Shown: piece by piece, positions 28,836 to 38,412 of the stretch
Numbering within the stretch: position 1 is the first letter of the stretch
Layout of the letters: the number at the start of each line of letters is the position of its first letter
Virus record (IMG/VR): IMGVR_UViG_3300032282_005896
Coordinates: 1 to 38,412 of that record
Origin: a virus
Strand: one strand, 5' to 3'
DNA: 38,412 nucleotides
The notes under the pieces: model-generated
Told to the model about the DNA's origin: nothing
What the model saw: the letters and a program-made list of their open reading frames with translations, nothing else
Databases searched by the model: none
Translations under genes and position numbers: made by a program

Positions 28836-29615
28836 ATGATGTTTGAACAATATGTATGGATACCGACTATTAATATGATTGACTATGTAATGACCATTCA
28901 CAAAAACTATGATCTGTTATACCTTCAAATTGAAAATTTCAAAAAGCGAATGGCATCATCAGATTATCGTCTCATCCTTGTTGACAACACACCCGATTCG
29001 CTACGACAAACTATAAAAATTGATGATTCGTCCGTCAATCATTTGATTCTGACAGTAGAAGCTCCAGATCCGTTTGATGGAGCTTCTCATGGATATGCTA
29101 TAAACTGCGGAATGAAATATTGTGAATCGCCAATCGTTTGTGTGATAGACTCCGATTTCTTTATTCTCAACAACAACATGCACAAATATGTTAACGGTAT
29201 TTTTGATCAAGGGTACAGAGCCGTTGGTTGTGAAATGGATGATGGTGATGGTTCCAAAATATTTCTGAAAGCTTGGCCACATTTATTTGAGAACATACCT
29301 TACTTGTTTTGTGCATACTATGACATCAACATAGCAACAGCAGCATCATGGGGAATCACCGATGAAGAAGCCAAAGAAGGTACACACACAGGCTTTTTGG
29401 ACACAGGCTGGAGAATCAGAAAGCATATTCTTGACAACAAAATCAAAACATGCAACTGGAAAACCGATGCTACTAGCTATGGTAACTGCTATTTCAGAAA
29501 CGCCAAACAAGAAATGATGGGATTTCACTACGGTGCTGGATCACATCGTAGATGGACAGAAAATGCCAAATCCGAGATCCACTCGGTTATTCAAAAAGAC
29601 TTTGGACAGGTCTGA
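28836..29615 (+). CDS. GT-A type glycosyltransferase (259 aa)
   Basis: The only convincing plus-strand protein gene. Two adjacent ATGs (28836 and 28839) can serve as start; a TTG at 28821 is less likely. The sequence VMTIHKNYDLLYLQIENFKK, then YRLILVDNTP, is the N-terminal nucleotide-binding half of a family 2-like fold. SPIVCVIDSDFFIL has the DxD metal motif (DSD). Later, HTGFLDTGWRIRKHIL is typical of the acceptor side. It probably transfers a sugar to the host envelope, or to phage DNA or protein. Its end overlaps the converging minus-strand glycosyltransferase by 25 nt. Confidence 0.75.
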   Translation: MMFEQYVWIPTINMIDYVMTIHKNYDLLYLQIENFKKRMASSDYRLILVDNTPDSLRQTIKIDDSSVNHLILTVEAPDPFDGASHGYAINCGMKYCESPIVCVIDSDFFILNNNMHKYVNGIFDQGYRAVGCEMDDGDGSKIFLKAWPHLFENIPYLFCAYYDINIATAASWGITDEEAKEGTHTGFLDTGWRIRKHILDNKIKTCNWKTDATSYGNCYFRNAKQEMMGFHYGAGSHRRWTENAKSEIHSVIQKDFGQV

Positions 29616-30397
29616 ATTACGGTATTGAATCCAGAGTTTGTCAATAGATCATAACAACCACTGGTTTGTTTATCTACAAAACGTTTATCTAAGGTTTCAA
29701 GGCTTGGTATATAATGACCAGAGGAGTCGTTTGGATCTTTACGATTATCCATCGGATGTAGCTTTGTCTGAATTTGCATTTTTCGATTTCTCAATGCATC
29801 GCAGTACGGCGACCAACCATACCACATACAATAAAATACATCTTTTGGATAAACTCGCTCCAAACGACTGTTGTGTCGCCCTGTAGTATATTGTCCATCT
29901 GGCATTTTGTGTAAGATTCTACATCTATTGTTACCGTTTTCTATAGACCCATACTGTCTTTGTGCATACAAAGGAACATTAGGATCAGTGGGTTTATCAA
30001 CATGTTCTGGTGAATCTACCATTAACACTCCCGTTGATGAAATACATGTGGCATCTGGGCTTTGATCCACAATTCCAGCAATAAACTTTTTGAGGTTCAG
30101 TTCTGGCATCAATATAAACTCGGTGGTATTGAGGCACATCTTCCAATACCCATCAAACTCTCGTTCAATATCCATAACTTCCTCATCAATAGGCCAAGGA
30201 TCAAAATATTCGTTTCGTGTTGTTCTGATTTGCCAGTGTGGAGCGAGTTGTTTGATGATATCAACAGATGAGTCTGTAGAGTTATAGTCAATCATCACCA
30301 CATCATCAAACATGCCAATGTGTTGCTTGATCCAAAACGGAAGCAAAAATTCTTCGTTGTAAAAATGTGATATTAGAAGGGTCTTTAGCTGTGACAT
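29591..30397 (-). CDS. Glycosyltransferase family 2/92-like (268 aa)
   Basis: The ATG at 30397 gives MSQLKTLLISHFYNEEFLLP. The order NEEFLLPFWIKQHIGMFDDV, then VMIDYNSTDSSVDIIKQLAP, is the start of a GT2/GT92 catalytic domain, in which the Asp of a DxD-like motif normally follows the second strand. A clear DxD is not seen; MPELN near residue 98 sits where it is expected. Later RLERVYPKDVFYCMWYGW is conserved-looking. It overlaps the converging plus-strand glycosyltransferase gene by 25 nt and is 27 nt downstream of the HAD-nucleotidyltransferase gene. Confidence 0.72.
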   Translation of the reverse strand: MSQLKTLLISHFYNEEFLLPFWIKQHIGMFDDVVMIDYNSTDSSVDIIKQLAPHWQIRTTRNEYFDPWPIDEEVMDIEREFDGYWKMCLNTTEFILMPELNLKKFIAGIVDQSPDATCISSTGVLMVDSPEHVDKPTDPNVPLYAQRQYGSIENGNNRCRILHKMPDGQYTTGRHNSRLERVYPKDVFYCMWYGWSPYCDALRNRKMQIQTKLHPMDNRKDPNDSSGHYIPSLETLDKRFVDKQTSGCYDLLTNSGFNTVIQTCPKSF

Positions 30398-30424
30398 ATA
30401 CACAAATATGTAGTACCAAATCAG

Positions 30425-31135
30425 CTATTCAAGAGATTTTTTAATCAAGTTTTTGAACTTGGTTGTAGACCAGCCATGTGATCTATCCAAAAAATGTATT
30501 TTTACGTCGTCCCTACATCCCGTGATGACTTTATTTTTGTAATCGTCACCCAAAAATCTGATGTGTGGTTTTACTTGATCAACGAGATTGACCAATTCAT
30601 TCTCTGTATGATATACAATCACTTCATCAACATATTTCAACGCCAACAAAGTGTTTCTACGATCATCCACCGACAGTATTGGTTTGATTTTATTTGGGTT
30701 TTCCAAAGTTGAATCTGCGTGTAACCCTACAATCAGTTTGTCACAATGGTTTTTTGCTTGTTGAAACATCGCAACATAGCCTGGATGTACAACATCAAAA
30801 GAACCCGCCAAAAAACCCACAATTTTTTTAGAGATTCTGCGTTTCCACTCGTCTGCACTGATGGCTTTGTCGTCTATAAACAAATCGTAGCTGGGTTTGT
30901 GTTTATCGATGAGAGTGTGGTATTTAACATTCCAATCAGATAATTGTTTGACTGTCAAATCATGCCAATCTATTTTGCTGGATGCGCCTCTTGCAGTAAA
31001 TAATGTGATGTGGTGTCCTTGTTCATACAACGAATTGACACTATCAATAATTTCTACCAATGGTTTAGCCAGAGCATAATCGTGTGACGCATCTGTGGTG
31101 CAAAGTGTGCCGTCGATGTCAAAACAATACTTCAT
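30425..31135 (-). CDS. HAD phosphatase-nucleotidyltransferase fusion (236 aa)
   Basis: The ATG at 31135 gives MKYCFDIDGTLCTTDASHDY and overlaps the kinase stop as ATGA. Residues 1-100 are a HAD domain with the catalytic FDIDGTLC and a Lys/Asp end (SYDLFIDDKA). Residues 105-236 are a cytidylyltransferase-like Rossmann domain: VGFLAGSFDVVHPGY, CDKLIVGLHADSTLE, then LSVDDRRNTLLALKYVDEVI. The usual HxGH is HPGY here (His117-Tyr120), so the second His is replaced. The two activities fit successive steps of activated-sugar synthesis: dephosphorylation, then nucleotide transfer. It acts with the GHMP kinase immediately upstream. Confidence 0.82.
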   Translation of the reverse strand: MKYCFDIDGTLCTTDASHDYALAKPLVEIIDSVNSLYEQGHHITLFTARGASSKIDWHDLTVKQLSDWNVKYHTLIDKHKPSYDLFIDDKAISADEWKRRISKKIVGFLAGSFDVVHPGYVAMFQQAKNHCDKLIVGLHADSTLENPNKIKPILSVDDRRNTLLALKYVDEVIVYHTENELVNLVDQVKPHIRFLGDDYKNKVITGCRDDVKIHFLDRSHGWSTTKFKNLIKKSLE

Positions 31136-32088
31136 AATTTTGTCAAGTTGTGAAACTGCAAACCTATATCCGAGCAATGTATTGGCAAGATAGCATAGTC
31201 GTGTATCAACGACCTATACGAATTTTTGTTGGCGAAAATTAGAAAATATCCTCCGTTGCCAGCACCGCATAACTTGTGGGATAAAATTCTGTTGTCTTGT
31301 GTCAGCTTGTTATCCAACGATTTCAATACCTCATGACCACAAATTTGCGGAGACGTTTGCTTTTTGTTGGTCCAAGTTCTGTTGATAACATTGTTGAATT
31401 TGTCTATGTCAACTGACTCTATTGCGGTTTGTAAATCACACACATCTCGCAACAACACCACAGACTTGGCAATATCAAGATTTTGTAACACAGTTGTAGA
31501 GTTTCTGATGATGTCGGTCCTCAGCAAATACAAATCCATTTTGTCAAATATACTCGCATTCAACAATGTGCATTGAGGATCTTTGTTTTTGATAAAATCA
31601 ATACGTTTAAGTCCGCCAAGACTTCCATAAAAATCTTGTTGTCCCACCAGTGGGTTTATTGTTTTTTCAATCTGCTCGGCAATTTTGCATACATCAAAGT
31701 CTGATAAGTTTTTGTTTTTATAAACACTTACACATTTGATCAACGCCAACAAATATGCAGACGATGCTGCCAATCCAGACCCAGCAGAGTATATATCGGA
31801 TGTCAACGAACAATGAATATGTTCAAGGTCAAAATATTCAAACACCTTTTTGACCAATTCATTTTTGATATCTGTTATATCACTAACTTCTTCTCTGATA
31901 GAATAGTTGATGATGTATTTTTTGTTTATTGAATTGATTCCCCATTTATCACGATTGATGACGACATAGGTTCTCAAGTTAGATGGAAAGCTTATGACCG
32001 ATCCACGTTCATAAGTGTCAATAAACTTAGGATGATCTGTGGACCCACCAACAAGTGAAATTCTTAATGGACACGATGCTACAATCAT
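31132..32088 (-). CDS. GHMP-family sugar kinase (heptose kinase HddA-like)
   Basis: 318 aa. CPLRISLVGGSTDHPKF is the N-terminal motif of the family. DIYSAGSGLAASSAYLLALI near residues 99-118 is motif 2 (ATP phosphate binding). HKLCGAGNGGYFLIFANKNS near residue 285 is motif 3. The closest type I recognise is D-glycero-D-manno-heptose 7-phosphate kinase (HddA); galactokinase-like and fucose kinases share the fold. Its product would be a substrate for the HAD-nucleotidyltransferase that follows with a 4-nt overlap. It overlaps the methyltransferase gene upstream by 4 nt. Such genes modify surface sugars. Confidence 0.82.
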   Translation of the reverse strand: MIVASCPLRISLVGGSTDHPKFIDTYERGSVISFPSNLRTYVVINRDKWGINSINKKYIINYSIREEVSDITDIKNELVKKVFEYFDLEHIHCSLTSDIYSAGSGLAASSAYLLALIKCVSVYKNKNLSDFDVCKIAEQIEKTINPLVGQQDFYGSLGGLKRIDFIKNKDPQCTLLNASIFDKMDLYLLRTDIIRNSTTVLQNLDIAKSVVLLRDVCDLQTAIESVDIDKFNNVINRTWTNKKQTSPQICGHEVLKSLDNKLTQDNRILSHKLCGAGNGGYFLIFANKNSYRSLIHDYAILPIHCSDIGLQFHNLTKL

Positions 32089-32786
32089 GGTAGTTTTCCA
32101 ACATAAACTAAATACCTATCATCACCACTTGGATTAATATAGCTGCGATTACAACACACAAACGGATACTGTATAGACTGTAGTTGAGATGATAACTGAT
32201 TCATCCACCACTCTTTTGGAAACAAAGATTTGTGATAGTCCAATCCGTCTGGAGTGTTTTTTGACGTAGGATGTCTACCAGAAGAAAACAACGCTATGGT
32301 GGCAACATATACACCGTTTGGTTTCAAGTGATTCTTTACTAACTCAATAAACTTTGGTACATCCTTGGGATCAAAATGCTCCATTACGTCCCAGCAAGTA
32401 ATTAAATCAAACTTCATGGGTTGACCATCACTGTAAATTTGATAATCTTTTGTGATATCACATGTAAACAGTATTTGATTACCATACGCTTGCCAATTTC
32501 TATGTCCAAGTGGCAACATTCCTACTTCATCAACAGATTGTTGTTGAACGTTCATACAATGATCCGAGCCCTCCAAACCAACCGCAACGTGGCCTTTTTG
32601 GTGCATGTCGCATATCAATTGTCCACCAGCACAACCCAAGTCCAGAATTGAGATTGGTCCACCAAAATGCCGTTCTACATCTGCGATGAACGTTTCGTTT
32701 GAGTTGTTGTCATAGTATATTCCCTCTGGATATTTATGGTCATCAGAGTCTACTGCAATTGGATGGTTTGTAGCTACTTGTATCAT
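32085..32786 (-). CDS. SAM-dependent methyltransferase (class I, 233 aa)
   Basis: The ATG at 32786 gives MIQVATNHPIAVDSDDHKYP. A TTG at 32798 would form TTGA with the upstream stop and remains possible. ISILDLGCAGGQLICDMHQK is motif I of class I methyltransferases, VAVGLEGSDHCM is motif II and FDLITCWDVMEHFDPKDVPK is the post-motif. The end of the gene overlaps the kinase start by 4 nt. It probably methylates a sugar, in line with its neighbours. The acceptor atom cannot be read from the sequence. Confidence 0.8.
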   Translation of the reverse strand: MIQVATNHPIAVDSDDHKYPEGIYYDNNSNETFIADVERHFGGPISILDLGCAGGQLICDMHQKGHVAVGLEGSDHCMNVQQQSVDEVGMLPLGHRNWQAYGNQILFTCDITKDYQIYSDGQPMKFDLITCWDVMEHFDPKDVPKFIELVKNHLKPNGVYVATIALFSSGRHPTSKNTPDGLDYHKSLFPKEWWMNQLSSQLQSIQYPFVCCNRSYINPSGDDRYLVYVGKLP

Positions 32787-32794
32787 AACAATGT

Positions 32795-34003
32795 TCAATT
32801 TTTTTCTTCGGTGTATTGAGGGAAGTATTTGATGTAGATATCGTTTGGTGAATTTCTCACTTGTTGGATTCGGCTTTTAATTTCTGAATAAAAATTCCAA
32901 GCCAATGGAACAAAACAAACTTTACTATAGTTGTTTTTCAAAATATCAATTGAACAAATAGGTATATTCATACCTGGAGTCAAATATCCACACTTCATTG
33001 GGTTGTCATCAATGATGTGGTCCAATTTATAGTTGATATAGTTCAGCAAAGTGTTGCCTTTGGCTGCGGCACCATATCCAATCAACACATATCCATCATT
33101 CTTTAGACGAGTTAAATTTTCGATCAATTGTTGTTTGATCTGTGCAGCATTATTTCTAAAACTGGTGTATTTATCGATGTTGTAGATACCATGTTGCGTC
33201 TCAAACTTGATCAACTCATTCAATTGAGCTTCATCACAAACTTGTTTTTGTAAAGAAAACAAAAACGATTTGCTATGAATATCAGTCTTTACAATGCTAG
33301 ACACGTACAAACCATGATTTCTTGCTAATGTCTGAATTGACTTGCCAGTAAAATATGACGAGTGTTCATGATAAATTACATCAAACTCATTATTCAGCAA
33401 CATATCACATTGAGATGTTTGAATAAAAATCTGTCCGGTATCAGACAACACACTTTTACATGCTGCTACAAAATCGTTAGGGTTTTGAACATGTGGCAAA
33501 ACATGAAATGCAAGTACCAAGTCAAACAAACCCTTTTCGGATTTGAGCTTGTTGGCAAAATTTTGATCCCAATAATCTACATACACATCCAAGTTTCTGG
33601 TTTGAGACATAGATCTCAGATTTTTTGCGGGATCTACACCACAACACGTAAACCCCTTTTTCTGAAACATATCCAACAGCAGCCCTGAGTTACATGCAAT
33701 TTCAAACACCTTTTTTGGTTTAGTCTTGTCAAGAATATATTGCACTACCCACTCAAAATATTGTGTAAGTGTCTTGGAGGTATCAGACACATACAGATAA
33801 TGTTCAAACATTTCTTTTGGATCTACTGACACAGATAGCTGTGAGTGCCAACAACTGTCACACAGCTTCATGGTCAATGGATATTGTTTTAGAGTTTCCC
33901 CTTTATGGTATGAATTGGCCAATGGTTGATTTCCCAGATCCAAAAACTCTATTGAAACTGGCCTGGCACATACCAAGCAATTATTGTTGTGTTTGTAACT
34001 CAT
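32795..34003 (-). CDS. Sugar C-methyltransferase (Methyltransf_13/14 type, 402 aa)
   Basis: Residues 1-60 hold a zinc-type cluster with C9-C12 and C48-C51 (CLVCARP, CDSCWHSQ). The middle is a SAM domain: VFEIACNSGLLLDMFQKKGF, TCCGVDPAKNL and FDLVLAFHVLPHVQNP. The end is typical of NDP-hexose C-methyltransferases: VLIGYGAAAKGNTLLNYINY, then DHIIDDNPMKCGYLTPGMNI. This family methylates carbon of nucleotide sugars. The start overlaps the epimerase gene end by 23 nt. Length 402 matches the family. Confidence 0.88.
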   Translation of the reverse strand: MSYKHNNNCLVCARPVSIEFLDLGNQPLANSYHKGETLKQYPLTMKLCDSCWHSQLSVSVDPKEMFEHYLYVSDTSKTLTQYFEWVVQYILDKTKPKKVFEIACNSGLLLDMFQKKGFTCCGVDPAKNLRSMSQTRNLDVYVDYWDQNFANKLKSEKGLFDLVLAFHVLPHVQNPNDFVAACKSVLSDTGQIFIQTSQCDMLLNNEFDVIYHEHSSYFTGKSIQTLARNHGLYVSSIVKTDIHSKSFLFSLQKQVCDEAQLNELIKFETQHGIYNIDKYTSFRNNAAQIKQQLIENLTRLKNDGYVLIGYGAAAKGNTLLNYINYKLDHIIDDNPMKCGYLTPGMNIPICSIDILKNNYSKVCFVPLAWNFYSEIKSRIQQVRNSPNDIYIKYFPQYTEEKN

Positions 34004-34874
34004 ATTTTTCTCGTTTTGACCACTTGTCGTTGTATGGACGTGCTATAATATCGGTGACAATTGATTGCACCGTATCAGTGAATTGAAAATTGTATGTGTT
34101 GCTAAACTTGTCGGTCAAAATGGAAAAATTATAGGTGAAATCTTTGCCTTTGTCGATAAGAGTGGAGTTTGTAACCTTGGCAACTTCATGACCAATATTG
34201 GATATAGTATTATTGAATGATTTCATGTTGTACACACCACGGTGGTCGTGCTTTGATTCAATAATTTTTTCAATACCGCTTACCAAATCATTAATTCCTA
34301 AAATAGGACGATAGCATTCACCATTGAAAACATTCAATATGCCATTTTTTTGTGCGGATAATGTCATGGAATTGATCATCAAATCAAGTCTCATGTTTGG
34401 GCTCCATCCGTTGACACTACCAAATCTCAGTGCATAATATTCAACGTTGGTCAATGGCATGAAATTGTCAATCGTAGTCTTGGAAAACGTCAAGCCGTCG
34501 ATTGGTGAACACAGATCAGTTTCTACTTTTGCAGAATTTCCAGACTCCACATATACACAAGAGCTTGATGCATATATGAACTTTTGTTTATTCAATTTTT
34601 TGACCAAATTGATAAACTTTCCTACGTTGTTATCAAATGTGTCAAATGGATCGCTACATAGCTTAACAGAAGAGTTGCCAGCAAGAAAAATGATGGCATC
34701 GAAACGATCCAGATACTCTTTCTTTAGCTCATCAAAACCAAGCTTGATATTATTTGGGTTGACAAAATTACCAAAATATTCCAAATCAACCGTGTCTACT
34801 TCGTATTTTTTGTGAAAACGAGTATACAGTGCAGATCCAATATAACCACATCCTCCAATAATCAATAACTTCAT
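33981..34874 (-). CDS. NAD-dependent sugar epimerase/dehydratase-like (297 aa)
   Basis: MKLLIIGGCGYIGSALYTRF has the GxxGxxG NAD motif (residues 7-13). AIIFLAGNSSVKLC and FIYASSSCVYVESG are typical of the extended SDR family. The catalytic YxxxK would fall at 128-132, where the sequence is LTFSK. Lys132 is kept but the Tyr is Leu. YYALRFGSVNGWSPNMRLDL is the usual substrate-side motif. The protein may be a binding or structural paralogue, or may use another acid/base. It is the first gene of the sugar operon. Confidence 0.8.
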   Translation of the reverse strand: MKLLIIGGCGYIGSALYTRFHKKYEVDTVDLEYFGNFVNPNNIKLGFDELKKEYLDRFDAIIFLAGNSSVKLCSDPFDTFDNNVGKFINLVKKLNKQKFIYASSSCVYVESGNSAKVETDLCSPIDGLTFSKTTIDNFMPLTNVEYYALRFGSVNGWSPNMRLDLMINSMTLSAQKNGILNVFNGECYRPILGINDLVSGIEKIIESKHDHRGVYNMKSFNNTISNIGHEVAKVTNSTLIDKGKDFTYNFSILTDKFSNTYNFQFTDTVQSIVTDIIARPYNDKWSKREKYELQTQQ

Positions 34875-35437: not shown

Positions 35438-35826
35438 TGGTGGACGTGGGGGAAGTCGAATCCCCGTCTTTGAATAAAAATCCATGATCATCTACACGCT
35501 TATGTGATTTTGAATTTGTTAGGAGCAGCAATATAATATCACCAAAAAGATGCTGTCTTAGGACCTGCTATAATTCGACTGAAACTACAAGTCAACTTTT
35601 TCAATCATAGTTCGTAGAATGACATTTGTTTTGATTACCGAACTCTCATCAAACAAACGGGCAACCAGTATTAGGCTGCAACAGCACCGACGTTCTCGTA
35701 AGAGAAGTCATAGCTCACTACATTTTCCTTAGCGGTTAATGTTTCGATAGACGTTTAGAGAGGCCAACTATCATCCTCTACGTGCTTACCATGAACGCAT
35801 ACTCAAATCGATACCAGTACACGCCC
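35438..35826 (-). ncRNA. ssrA: tmRNA (one-piece, 389 nt)
   Basis: The 5' end GGGCGTG (35820-35826) pairs with CACGTCC (35442-35448) before ACCA; one pair is G-U. The 5' side continues TACTGGTATCGATTTGAG, the tmRNA D-region. The 3' side has a tRNA-like T-arm (GGGGATTCGACTTCCCC) and the preceding helix TAAGCGTGTAGATGATCATGG, as in bacterial ssrA. The tag frame begins at GCT (35731-35733) and ends at TAA (35671-35673), encoding AKENVVSYDF-SYENVGAVAA. tmRNA frees stalled ribosomes and tags the product for proteolysis. It is followed directly by a strong terminator. The length and permutation are ordinary; a phage copy is not. Confidence 0.9.
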
Positions 35827-35847: not shown

Positions 35848-35919
35848 TGGTAGCTGGTATGGGTGCTGCCCCCACTTAACAAACCTTATGAGGATTCGTC
35901 GTTTGCTGAAACCCCAGCC
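35848..35919 (-). tRNA. tRNA-Met/Ile (CAT), atypical D- and T-arms
   Basis: Acceptor GGCTGGG/ACCAGCT (G1-U72, G7-A66 mismatch), A73, CCA encoded. Anticodon loop CTCATAA gives CAT, as in elongator Met and the Ile2 type. T-arm GTGGG/CCCAT with loop GGCAGCA in place of TTCGAAN. The D-arm is short (GTTT-CAGC-AAAC) and has no GG. The frame GCAAACGACGAATCC inside it looks like a tmRNA tag by chance. Confidence 0.7.
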
Positions 35920-37149: not shown

Positions 37150-37225
37150 TGGTCGGAGTGGAGAATTTCGCAATCTCAACCTCCTGTCTCCAAAACAGGC
37201 CGTCTACTTTTGACATTACACTCCG
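37150..37225 (-). tRNA. tRNA-Pro (TGG), atypical T-loop
   Basis: Acceptor CGGAGTG/CACTCCG, A73, CCA encoded. Anticodon arm CCTGT-TTTGGAG-ACAGG, perfect. T-loop TGCGAAA (G55), with a T-T pair closing the stem instead of G53-C61. D-loop AAAAGTA has no GG. A canonical tRNA-Pro with the same anticodon lies at 38316-38386. Confidence 0.7.
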
Positions 37226-37479: not shown

Positions 37480-37572
37480 TGGCGGAAGGTGAGGGTGCTG
37501 CCCCCTCAGTGGTTTTTAGGCCACGGCAGTTTAGCAAACTGCTACGACTAACTAACTATTCGTCTACCTTCC
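37480..37572 (-). tRNA. tRNA-Ser (GCT), atypical T-loop
   Basis: Acceptor GGAAGGT/ACCTTCC, G73, CCA encoded. Anticodon arm GCAGT-TTGCTAA-ACTGC. Long variable arm GTGG-CCTAAAAA-CCAC, as Ser requires. T-arm GAGGG/CCCTC with loop GGCAGCA instead of TTCGAAN. D-loop ATAGTTAGTTAG has no GG. Confidence 0.8.
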
Positions 37573-37685: not shown

Positions 37686-37777
37686 TGGCGGATGCTGTCC
37701 GTACTGCCCGGACCTTCGTTTTTAGGCGAACCTAGTTTTCAAGACTAGTGAGGCCAGCTTATATCCCCCTAGCATCC
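37686..37777 (-). tRNA. tRNA-Ser (TGA), atypical T-loop
   Basis: Acceptor GGATGCT/AGCATCC, G73, CCA encoded. Anticodon arm CTAGT-CTTGAAA-ACTAG. Long variable arm TTCG-CCTAAAAA-CGAA, sharing its loop with tRNA-Ser (GCT). T-loop GGCAGTA on GTCCG/CGGAC. D-loop ATATAAGCTGG has a GG only next to the stem, not in the usual place. Confidence 0.8.
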
Positions 37778-37783
37778 ATAAAT

Positions 37784-37861
37784 TGGTAGGCGTGGTAGGA
37801 TTCGAACCTACAACATTCAAATTTTAAGTATGACGACTCTTTCCAGTTGGTCTACACGCCC
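37784..37861 (-). tRNA. tRNA with Leu anticodon TAA, class I (short variable loop)
   Basis: Acceptor GGGCGTG/CACGCCT (G1-U72), A73, CCA encoded. Anticodon arm TCATA-CTTAAAA-TTTGA with one T-T mismatch. Variable loop only ATGTT. T-loop TTCGAAT, D-loop with GG. The short loop is unusual for tRNA-Leu. Confidence 0.8.
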
Positions 37862-37871
37862 GTTAATAAAT

Positions 37872-37949
37872 TGGTAGCATCGACTGGATTCGAACCAGCA
37901 CTACTCTATTTTTGAGATAGATGACTCCTTCCATTTGGTCTACGATGCC
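37872..37949 (-). tRNA. tRNA with Leu anticodon CAA, class I
   Basis: Acceptor GGCATCG/CGATGCT (G1-U72), A73, CCA encoded. Anticodon arm TCTAT-CTCAAAA-ATAGA, variable loop GTAGT, T-loop TTCGAAT. D-arm almost the same as in the TAA, CAG and GAG tRNAs. Confidence 0.85.
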
Positions 37950-37956
37950 ATTAAAT

Positions 37957-38033
37957 TGGTGGACCAGGTGAGAATCGAACTCACAACAGATTGATTGCAA
38001 ATCAGTCTCGCTGCCCTTAGAACATGCCAGCCC
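37957..38033 (-). tRNA. tRNA-Ala (TGC)-like, degenerate acceptor
   Basis: Acceptor GGGCTGG/CTGGTCC with several G-U pairs including G3-U70, A73, CCA encoded. The 3' strand equals that of tRNA-Ala at 37398. Anticodon arm ACTGA-TTTGCAA-TCAAT with one C-A mismatch. T-loop TTCGATT. The D-arm is weak (TGTT/AGCG). A Cys (GCA) reading is possible but the stem then fails. Confidence 0.6.
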
Positions 38034-38046
38034 ATTTAATTGAAAT

Positions 38047-38124
38047 TGGTAGCTACGATAGGATTCGAACCTACACTATCTACTTTCTGAGAGTAGCGTC
38101 TCCTTCCATTTGGACTACGTAGCC
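38047..38124 (-). tRNA. tRNA with Leu anticodon CAG, class I
   Basis: Acceptor GGCTACG/CGTAGCT (G1-U72), A73, CCA encoded. Anticodon arm CTACT-CTCAGAA-AGTAG, variable loop ATAGT, T-loop TTCGAAT. Confidence 0.87.
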
Positions 38125-38135
38125 ATTACAAAAAT

Positions 38136-38219
38136 TGGTCGGCATGATAGGACTTGCACCTACACCCCTTTCGGGACGAGCTTCTAAGACTCGCATGGCT
38201 TCTATTACATCACATGCCG
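38136..38219 (-). tRNA. tRNA-Leu (TAG), class II, atypical T-loop
   Basis: Acceptor CGGCATG/CATGCCG, A73, CCA encoded. Anticodon arm CGAGT-CTTAGAA-GCTCG. Long variable arm CCC-GAAA-GGG. T-loop TGCAAGT (G55) in place of TTCAAGT. D-loop TAATAGAAGC has no GG. Confidence 0.8.
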
Positions 38220-38224
38220 AAAAT

Positions 38225-38302
38225 TGGTGGTGACGACAGGATTTGAACCTGCACTATTTACTATCTCAAAGTAACGACTCCTTCCAGTTGGTCTACGTCA
38301 CC
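38225..38302 (-). tRNA. tRNA with Leu anticodon GAG, class I
   Basis: Acceptor GGTGACG/CGTCACC, A73, CCA encoded. Anticodon arm TTACT-TTGAGAT-AGTAA, variable loop ATAGT, T-loop TTCAAAT. Confidence 0.87.
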
Positions 38303-38315
38303 GTTTGAAAATCCC

Positions 38316-38386
38316 TCGGCCCACAGAGAATCGAACTCTGTCCCCATGCTCCCAAAGCACGTATGCTACCGTAACACCTTGGACCG
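38316..38386 (-). tRNA. tRNA-Pro (TGG), canonical, CCA not encoded
   Basis: Acceptor CGGTCCA/TGGGCCG, A73, then GGG: the only tRNA of the array without an encoded CCA. Anticodon arm CGTGC-TTTGGGA-GCATG with G37 as usual for Pro. T-loop TTCGATT, D-loop TACGGTA with GG. Confidence 0.85.
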
Positions 38387-38412
38387 AGAATGACAAGATA
38401 ACTTGTCGAAAT

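Follow-up and report, generated by a model that had tools for sequence, protein, structure and literature searches.

Four of the five leucine tRNAs encoded at the right end of a viral contig lack the long variable arm, and are very likely genuine armless leucine tRNAs that are charged by the host leucyl-tRNA synthetase (LeuRS) and decode normally. According to a 2023 review, the long arm of tRNA-Leu is found everywhere except in animal mitochondria (PMC9976931). The phage and bacterial genes considered here, which number in the hundreds, break this rule yet keep the identity set that in vitro work established for E. coli LeuRS. Searches of the accessible literature, which covers a minority of subscription journals, turned up no earlier account of bacterial or phage class I tRNA-Leu, and within that scope the breadth of the family is new.

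The window (the whole stretch of DNA analysed) is a linear viral contig of 38,412 bases with a PhoH gene and with genes for T4-like proteins of the baseplate and the tail fibres; at its right end, the minus strand carries a tmRNA and an array of tRNAs. Five minus-strand leucine tRNAs were called by both ARAGORN and Rfam. Those for UAA (37784..37861; variable loop ATGTT, CCA encoded), CAA (37872..37949; GTAGT), CAG (38047..38124; ATAGT) and GAG (38225..38302; ATAGT) are class I and 78 nt long, and that for UAG (38136..38219) is class II and 84 nt long, with the variable arm UCCCGAAAGGGGU (12-13 nt) and an altered elbow (D-loop AG for GG, T-loop UGCAAGU). All five exceed the RF00005 cut-off of 29 bits (TAA 54.5, CAA 49.8, CAG 55.8, TAG 42.2, GAG 54.4). 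The preliminary description, which had reported five leucine anticodons with the long arm in TAG only, is borne out by both programs and by the 5-nt variable loops. The array is also as it described, except that a tRNA-Ala(UGC) (37957..38033, minus strand, ARAGORN) sits inside it; the next array member is a tRNA-Pro(UGG) (38315..38387, minus strand, ARAGORN).

The class I copies share the D-arm GTAGWCCAAMTGGAARGAGWC, found at four places in the window and in none of 100 shuffles. The near-identity of the D-arm that had been noted earlier thus holds; between the bodies, however, identity is just 67-79% once the anticodon is masked. The consensus of the wider family is U8 A9 G10 N11 C12 C13 A14 A15 Y16 U17 G18 G19 N20 A20a G20b G21 A22 G23 N24 C25, with U48, the T-loop GGTTCRA and A73; the window copies deviate from it at position 16 (A in CAA and CAG) and at 20b (A in UAA). 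All four, the UAA copy included, carry A73, A14, the Levitt pair A15-U48, G18G19 and A20a. Their 5-nt variable loop places them outside class II tRNA-Leu, yet they appear to work as tRNA-Leu. A U-U mismatch interrupts the anticodon stem of the UAA copy, which may therefore be weaker or decaying.

Bacterial class II tRNA-Leu shares with the class I copies the leucine anticodons, A73, A14, A15-U48, G18G19 and A20a. By comparison with it, the class I copies lack the long arm, have A9 instead of G9, C12-G23 instead of G12-C23 and C13 instead of G13, and carry one additional nucleotide in the D-loop. Animal mitochondrial tRNA-Leu is also class I in shape, and is charged without the arm by its LeuRS through A73 and A14 (PMC9976931), but it is mitochondrial and has a degenerate anticodon branch, whereas the phage and bacterial copies have a canonical elbow and the T-loop GGTTCRA. 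Armless E. coli tRNA-Leu variants made in the laboratory likewise remain active with LeuRS (PMC9976931); the phage and bacterial copies differ from them in that they are natural genes whose core has been rebuilt as class I, and form a natural counterpart of those experiments.

Identity elements and distribution of the class I family

In E. coli tRNA-Leu the crucial elements are A73, A15-U48, G18G19 and A20a, while the anticodon and the long arm are not crucial and armless variants stay active with E. coli LeuRS (PMC9976931). A14 matters in related systems, and human mitochondrial tRNA-Leu(UUR) accepts leucine although it has no long arm (PMC9976931). The acceptance by LeuRS through A73 and the core that had been put forward as one option is well supported by the exclusively leucine anticodons and by this identity set. 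Among the 212 distinct bodies in the matches listed, A73 and U48 are invariant (212/212), both positions having been left free in the search pattern; in the 117 distinct viral bodies listed, stems are 95-100% paired and CCA is encoded in 59%. Circularity was checked with 95 class I leucine tRNAs from outside the discovery pattern: A14 is present in 94 and A15-U48 in 91. The combination of A15-U48 and A73 is found in 83 of these 95, compared with 138 of the 1002 tRNAs for other amino acids in these arrays (Fisher p ~8e-51), and most of the 12 misses are an ARAGORN artefact in which one extra acceptor base is paired.

A search with the D-arm pattern returned 19 viral contigs. A wider pattern, in which D-arm, spacing and T-loop were fixed and 26 nt including the anticodon and the variable loop were free, occurs in at least 119 stretches of the viral collection (at least 147 matches) and at least 119 of the bacterial collection (at least 123 matches). 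All 270 matches listed (147/147 viral, 123/123 bacterial) have a leucine anticodon, namely TAG, TAA, CAA, GAG, CAG or AAG. The bacterial matches listed include Nocardiopsis, Micromonospora, Planctomycetota, Acidobacteria, Cyanobacteria and Bacteroidota. Class I leucine tRNAs were identified by structure in Mycobacterium phage Bonray, Pseudomonas phage vB_PseuGesM_254 and Escherichia phage JLBYU32, and by similarity only in Streptomyces, Erwinia and Synechococcus phages among others; where annotated in named phages, they are labelled plainly as 'tRNA-Leu'. A nucleotide search with the window CAA tRNA gave only weak matches in named phages. Several class I leucine isoacceptors are often kept together in one phage. 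In the Felixounavirus JLBYU32 these are UAG and CAA, accompanied by a tRNA-Leu(UAA) with a 7-nt variable loop, and as the recorded host is E. coli K-12, their charging would fall to the LeuRS that has been studied best. A search of E. coli genomes with the Felixounavirus tRNA gave no match.

Some relatives of the window carry a class II TAG tRNA and others a class I TAG tRNA in its place. The existence of the former agrees with what was expected of a lineage oddity, but the trait is far wider: the well over 100 viral contigs with matches, together with the bacterial genomes and the named isolates, rule that reading out. Dense clusters of many isotypes are familiar from other phage and bacterial tRNA arrays, in which the class I state of the leucine members goes unremarked in the papers searched. 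Sorting phage tRNAs by the variable arm would mislead.

In bacteria, class I tRNA-Leu also appears among housekeeping genes. The draft genome of Micromonospora wenchangensis has 53 tRNAs by RF00005, and its leucine set comprises class II CAA, CAG, UAA and GAG and a class I UAG only; a class II tRNA-Leu(UAG) was sought there with an independent pattern and not found. For Streptomonospora nanhaiensis, whose genome is complete, the search likewise turned up no tRNA-Leu(UAG) other than a class I copy, a statement that covers UAG alone, the class II Leu(CAA/UAA) pattern being too noisy for actinobacteria. Since the sole tRNA-Leu(UAG) found is class I, the CUA codons of these genomes must, judging from their gene content, depend on class I tRNA-Leu.

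Loss of the variable arm and origin of the copies

The surveyed phage arrays contain 217 distinct class I and 44 class II leucine tRNAs, a class I count that is inflated because the arrays were picked for at least one such tRNA; without the pattern matches there are still 95 class I versus 44 class II. In the same arrays the long arm is kept by 98 of 99 tRNAs for serine and 22 of 25 for tyrosine, and arm loss is thus leucine-specific in these arrays. The window itself encodes two class II serine tRNAs on the minus strand, tRNA-Ser(GCU) (37480..37572; T-loop GGCAGCA) and tRNA-Ser(UGA) (37686..37777; T-loop GGCAGUA), neither called by ARAGORN or Rfam, the former showing that the long arm is kept for serine in an array that holds class I leucine tRNAs. 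SerRS requires the long variable arm, and TyrRS, it seems, also depends on it, which would explain why the serine and tyrosine tRNAs of these arrays keep theirs. For leucine, the arm was probably lost repeatedly through relaxed constraint. It is predicted that LeuRS charges class I tRNA-Leu and that serine tRNAs are barred from the same path.

A CCAA-type D-arm is found in 195 of the 217 class I leucine tRNAs, compared with 2 of 47 with longer loops, both of which have 7-nt loops. The class II tRNA-Leu of the same arrays have mostly G9, G12, G13 and an AGAC-type D-arm. This split argues that the arm was not simply dropped and that the core was rebuilt. Eleven class I copies have a class II-like AGAC D-arm, which suggests that the arm was lost more than once.

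The four window copies had been attributed to duplication with anticodon change. Given the divergence of their bodies, any duplication must be old. For the CAA and GAG copies the nearest relatives carry the same anticodon and come from other phages (identity 90% for CAA and 93% for GAG), so that these two were distinct before those phages split; the UAA and CAG copies have no close same-anticodon relative. Elsewhere in the family, bodies that are 96-97% identical carry different leucine anticodons. Part of the earlier proposal is therefore retained, in that switches within the leucine box do occur in the family, while the window CAA and GAG copies predate the phage split. Taken together, these comparisons indicate that anticodon switching within the leucine box is real but not recent in the window, and a recent duplication within the window phage is ruled out by the divergence of the bodies and by the CAA and GAG orthologues.

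Charging, codon meaning and rival explanations

From the features above, host LeuRS would be the enzyme that charges the window copies. In the mechanism proposed, the long variable arm would have been lost and a class I core rebuilt, and host LeuRS would charge the copies with leucine without reading the anticodon. The enzyme would use A73 together with A15-U48, G18G19 and A20a, which is the E. coli set and may not be that of the host, with no need for the arm; A14, used in related systems, would be available as well. The copies would then add to the host tRNA-Leu pool, or stand in for it, at UUA, UUG, CUG and CUC/CUU codons during infection. In 24 open reading frames of the window (G+C 39%), UUG makes up 421 of 753 leucine codons and UUA 65; this excess of UUG over UUA is unusual, and UUG is the codon that the class I tRNA-Leu(CAA) reads.

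The preliminary description had also raised the possibility that the class I tRNAs are substrates of a different synthetase and that some leucine codons are read differently late in infection, an idea for which the class I shape itself speaks and which now seems extremely improbable. Such recoding is difficult to reconcile with the leucine anticodons (270/270) and leucine identity bases found throughout the family matches listed. A G3:U70 pair, which would attract AlaRS, was found in none of the 212 distinct bodies listed, and the discriminator is A73 and not the G73 of serine tRNAs. Codon meaning was compared by aligning the window PhoH, nucleotidyltransferase and epimerase with solved structures. 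Leucine codons aligned with leucine in 15 of 54 cases for UUG, 4/11 for UUA, 5/11 for CUU, 5/9 for CUA, 5/18 for CUG and 1/3 for CUC, a small sample (two positions for CUC, six for UUA) in which leucine is nonetheless the commonest aligned residue for each of the six codons, with a tie for CUC. The other residues are mostly Ile, Val, Met and Phe. Codons read by class I tRNAs align with leucine just as CUA does, which is read by the class II tRNA. PF00133, the class I synthetase family to which LeuRS belongs, was searched for in 25 records (22 viral contigs and three named phages) and was absent from 24; G007 has a weak partial match, the one further point in favour of recoding. As no convincing match was obtained in the 25 records, a phage-borne LeuRS was rejected, and the near-absence of the family makes a host enzyme the likely charger. 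A similar class I tRNA serves as a housekeeping gene in bacteria, which also argues against a change of meaning. Recoding was discarded on the codon alignments and the identity elements, and every sign points to charging by host LeuRS and an unchanged genetic code.

The copies might instead be decaying or decoy tRNAs that are unused in translation, as the stem mismatch of the UAA copy could be taken to imply. This is very improbable, considering the well-paired stems, frequently encoded CCA and invariant identity bases of the viral bodies, the conservation of CAA and GAG as orthologues in other phages, and the bacteria in which no other tRNA-Leu(UAG) was found. A somewhat less remote, though still doubtful, explanation is evasion of defence: the arm would have been lost because class II tRNA-Leu is a target that nucleases or toxins of the host recognise, and a compact tRNA-Leu, still charged by LeuRS, would survive while the host tRNA-Leu is cleaved. 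Phage tRNAs are reported to escape tRNA-targeting defences through anticodon-loop changes (PMC10264068), and the frequent co-occurrence of several class I leucine isoacceptors in phages fits such a role. However, no nuclease dependent on the leucine variable arm was found, arm loss is also seen in bacterial housekeeping genes, and relaxed constraint alone explains the contrast between leucine and serine. A broader version has a similarly low probability: class I tRNA-Leu would be a widespread, horizontally shared natural family with its arm lost and its core rebuilt, favoured in phages for going unrecognised by some host factor that binds to the class II arm, and fixed in some actinobacteria as the sole tRNA-Leu(UAG). 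That factor may be a nuclease of a defence system, an enzyme of tRNA modification or a regulator. Under the preferred reading of armless tRNAs charged by host LeuRS, compact leucine tRNAs are on offer for engineering.

Altered elbows and other features of the array

Several tRNAs of the arrays have an altered elbow, in which the D-loop G18G19 is replaced by AG and the T-loop by an xGC type (GGCAGNA, UGCAAGU, AGCGUUA). Such elbows occur on the minus strand of the window at 35848-35919, 37150-37225, 37480-37572, 37686-37777 and 38136-38219, and also in relatives (L003-L131). Across 1357 phage tRNAs, G55 coincides with loss of GG in 69 of 84 cases and U55 with GG in 1211 of 1231 (Fisher p ~3e-81), which looks like a compensatory swap from G18:U55 to A18:G55 across many isotypes. 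U55 is the usual pseudouridine site of tRNA, and the swap would remove it. Some altered-elbow tRNAs are not called by ARAGORN and Rfam. Two probable tRNAs that ARAGORN did not call lie on the minus strand, one at 35848-35919 with the anticodon CAU, the T-loop GGCAGCA and one acceptor mismatch, and the other at 37150-37225 with the anticodon UGG and the T-loop UGCGAAA.

The array adjoins a tmRNA (35438-35826, minus strand; 117.7 bits) with the tag AKENVVSYDFSYENVGAVAA, and tmRNAs with similar tags are also present in the relatives L003, L005, L015, L017 and L018. At lower window coordinates, a run of surface-sugar genes (29591-34874, minus strand) includes a glycosyltransferase-like gene, a cytidylyltransferase fused to a HAD-like domain, a GHMP kinase, two methyltransferases and a nucleotide-sugar epimerase.
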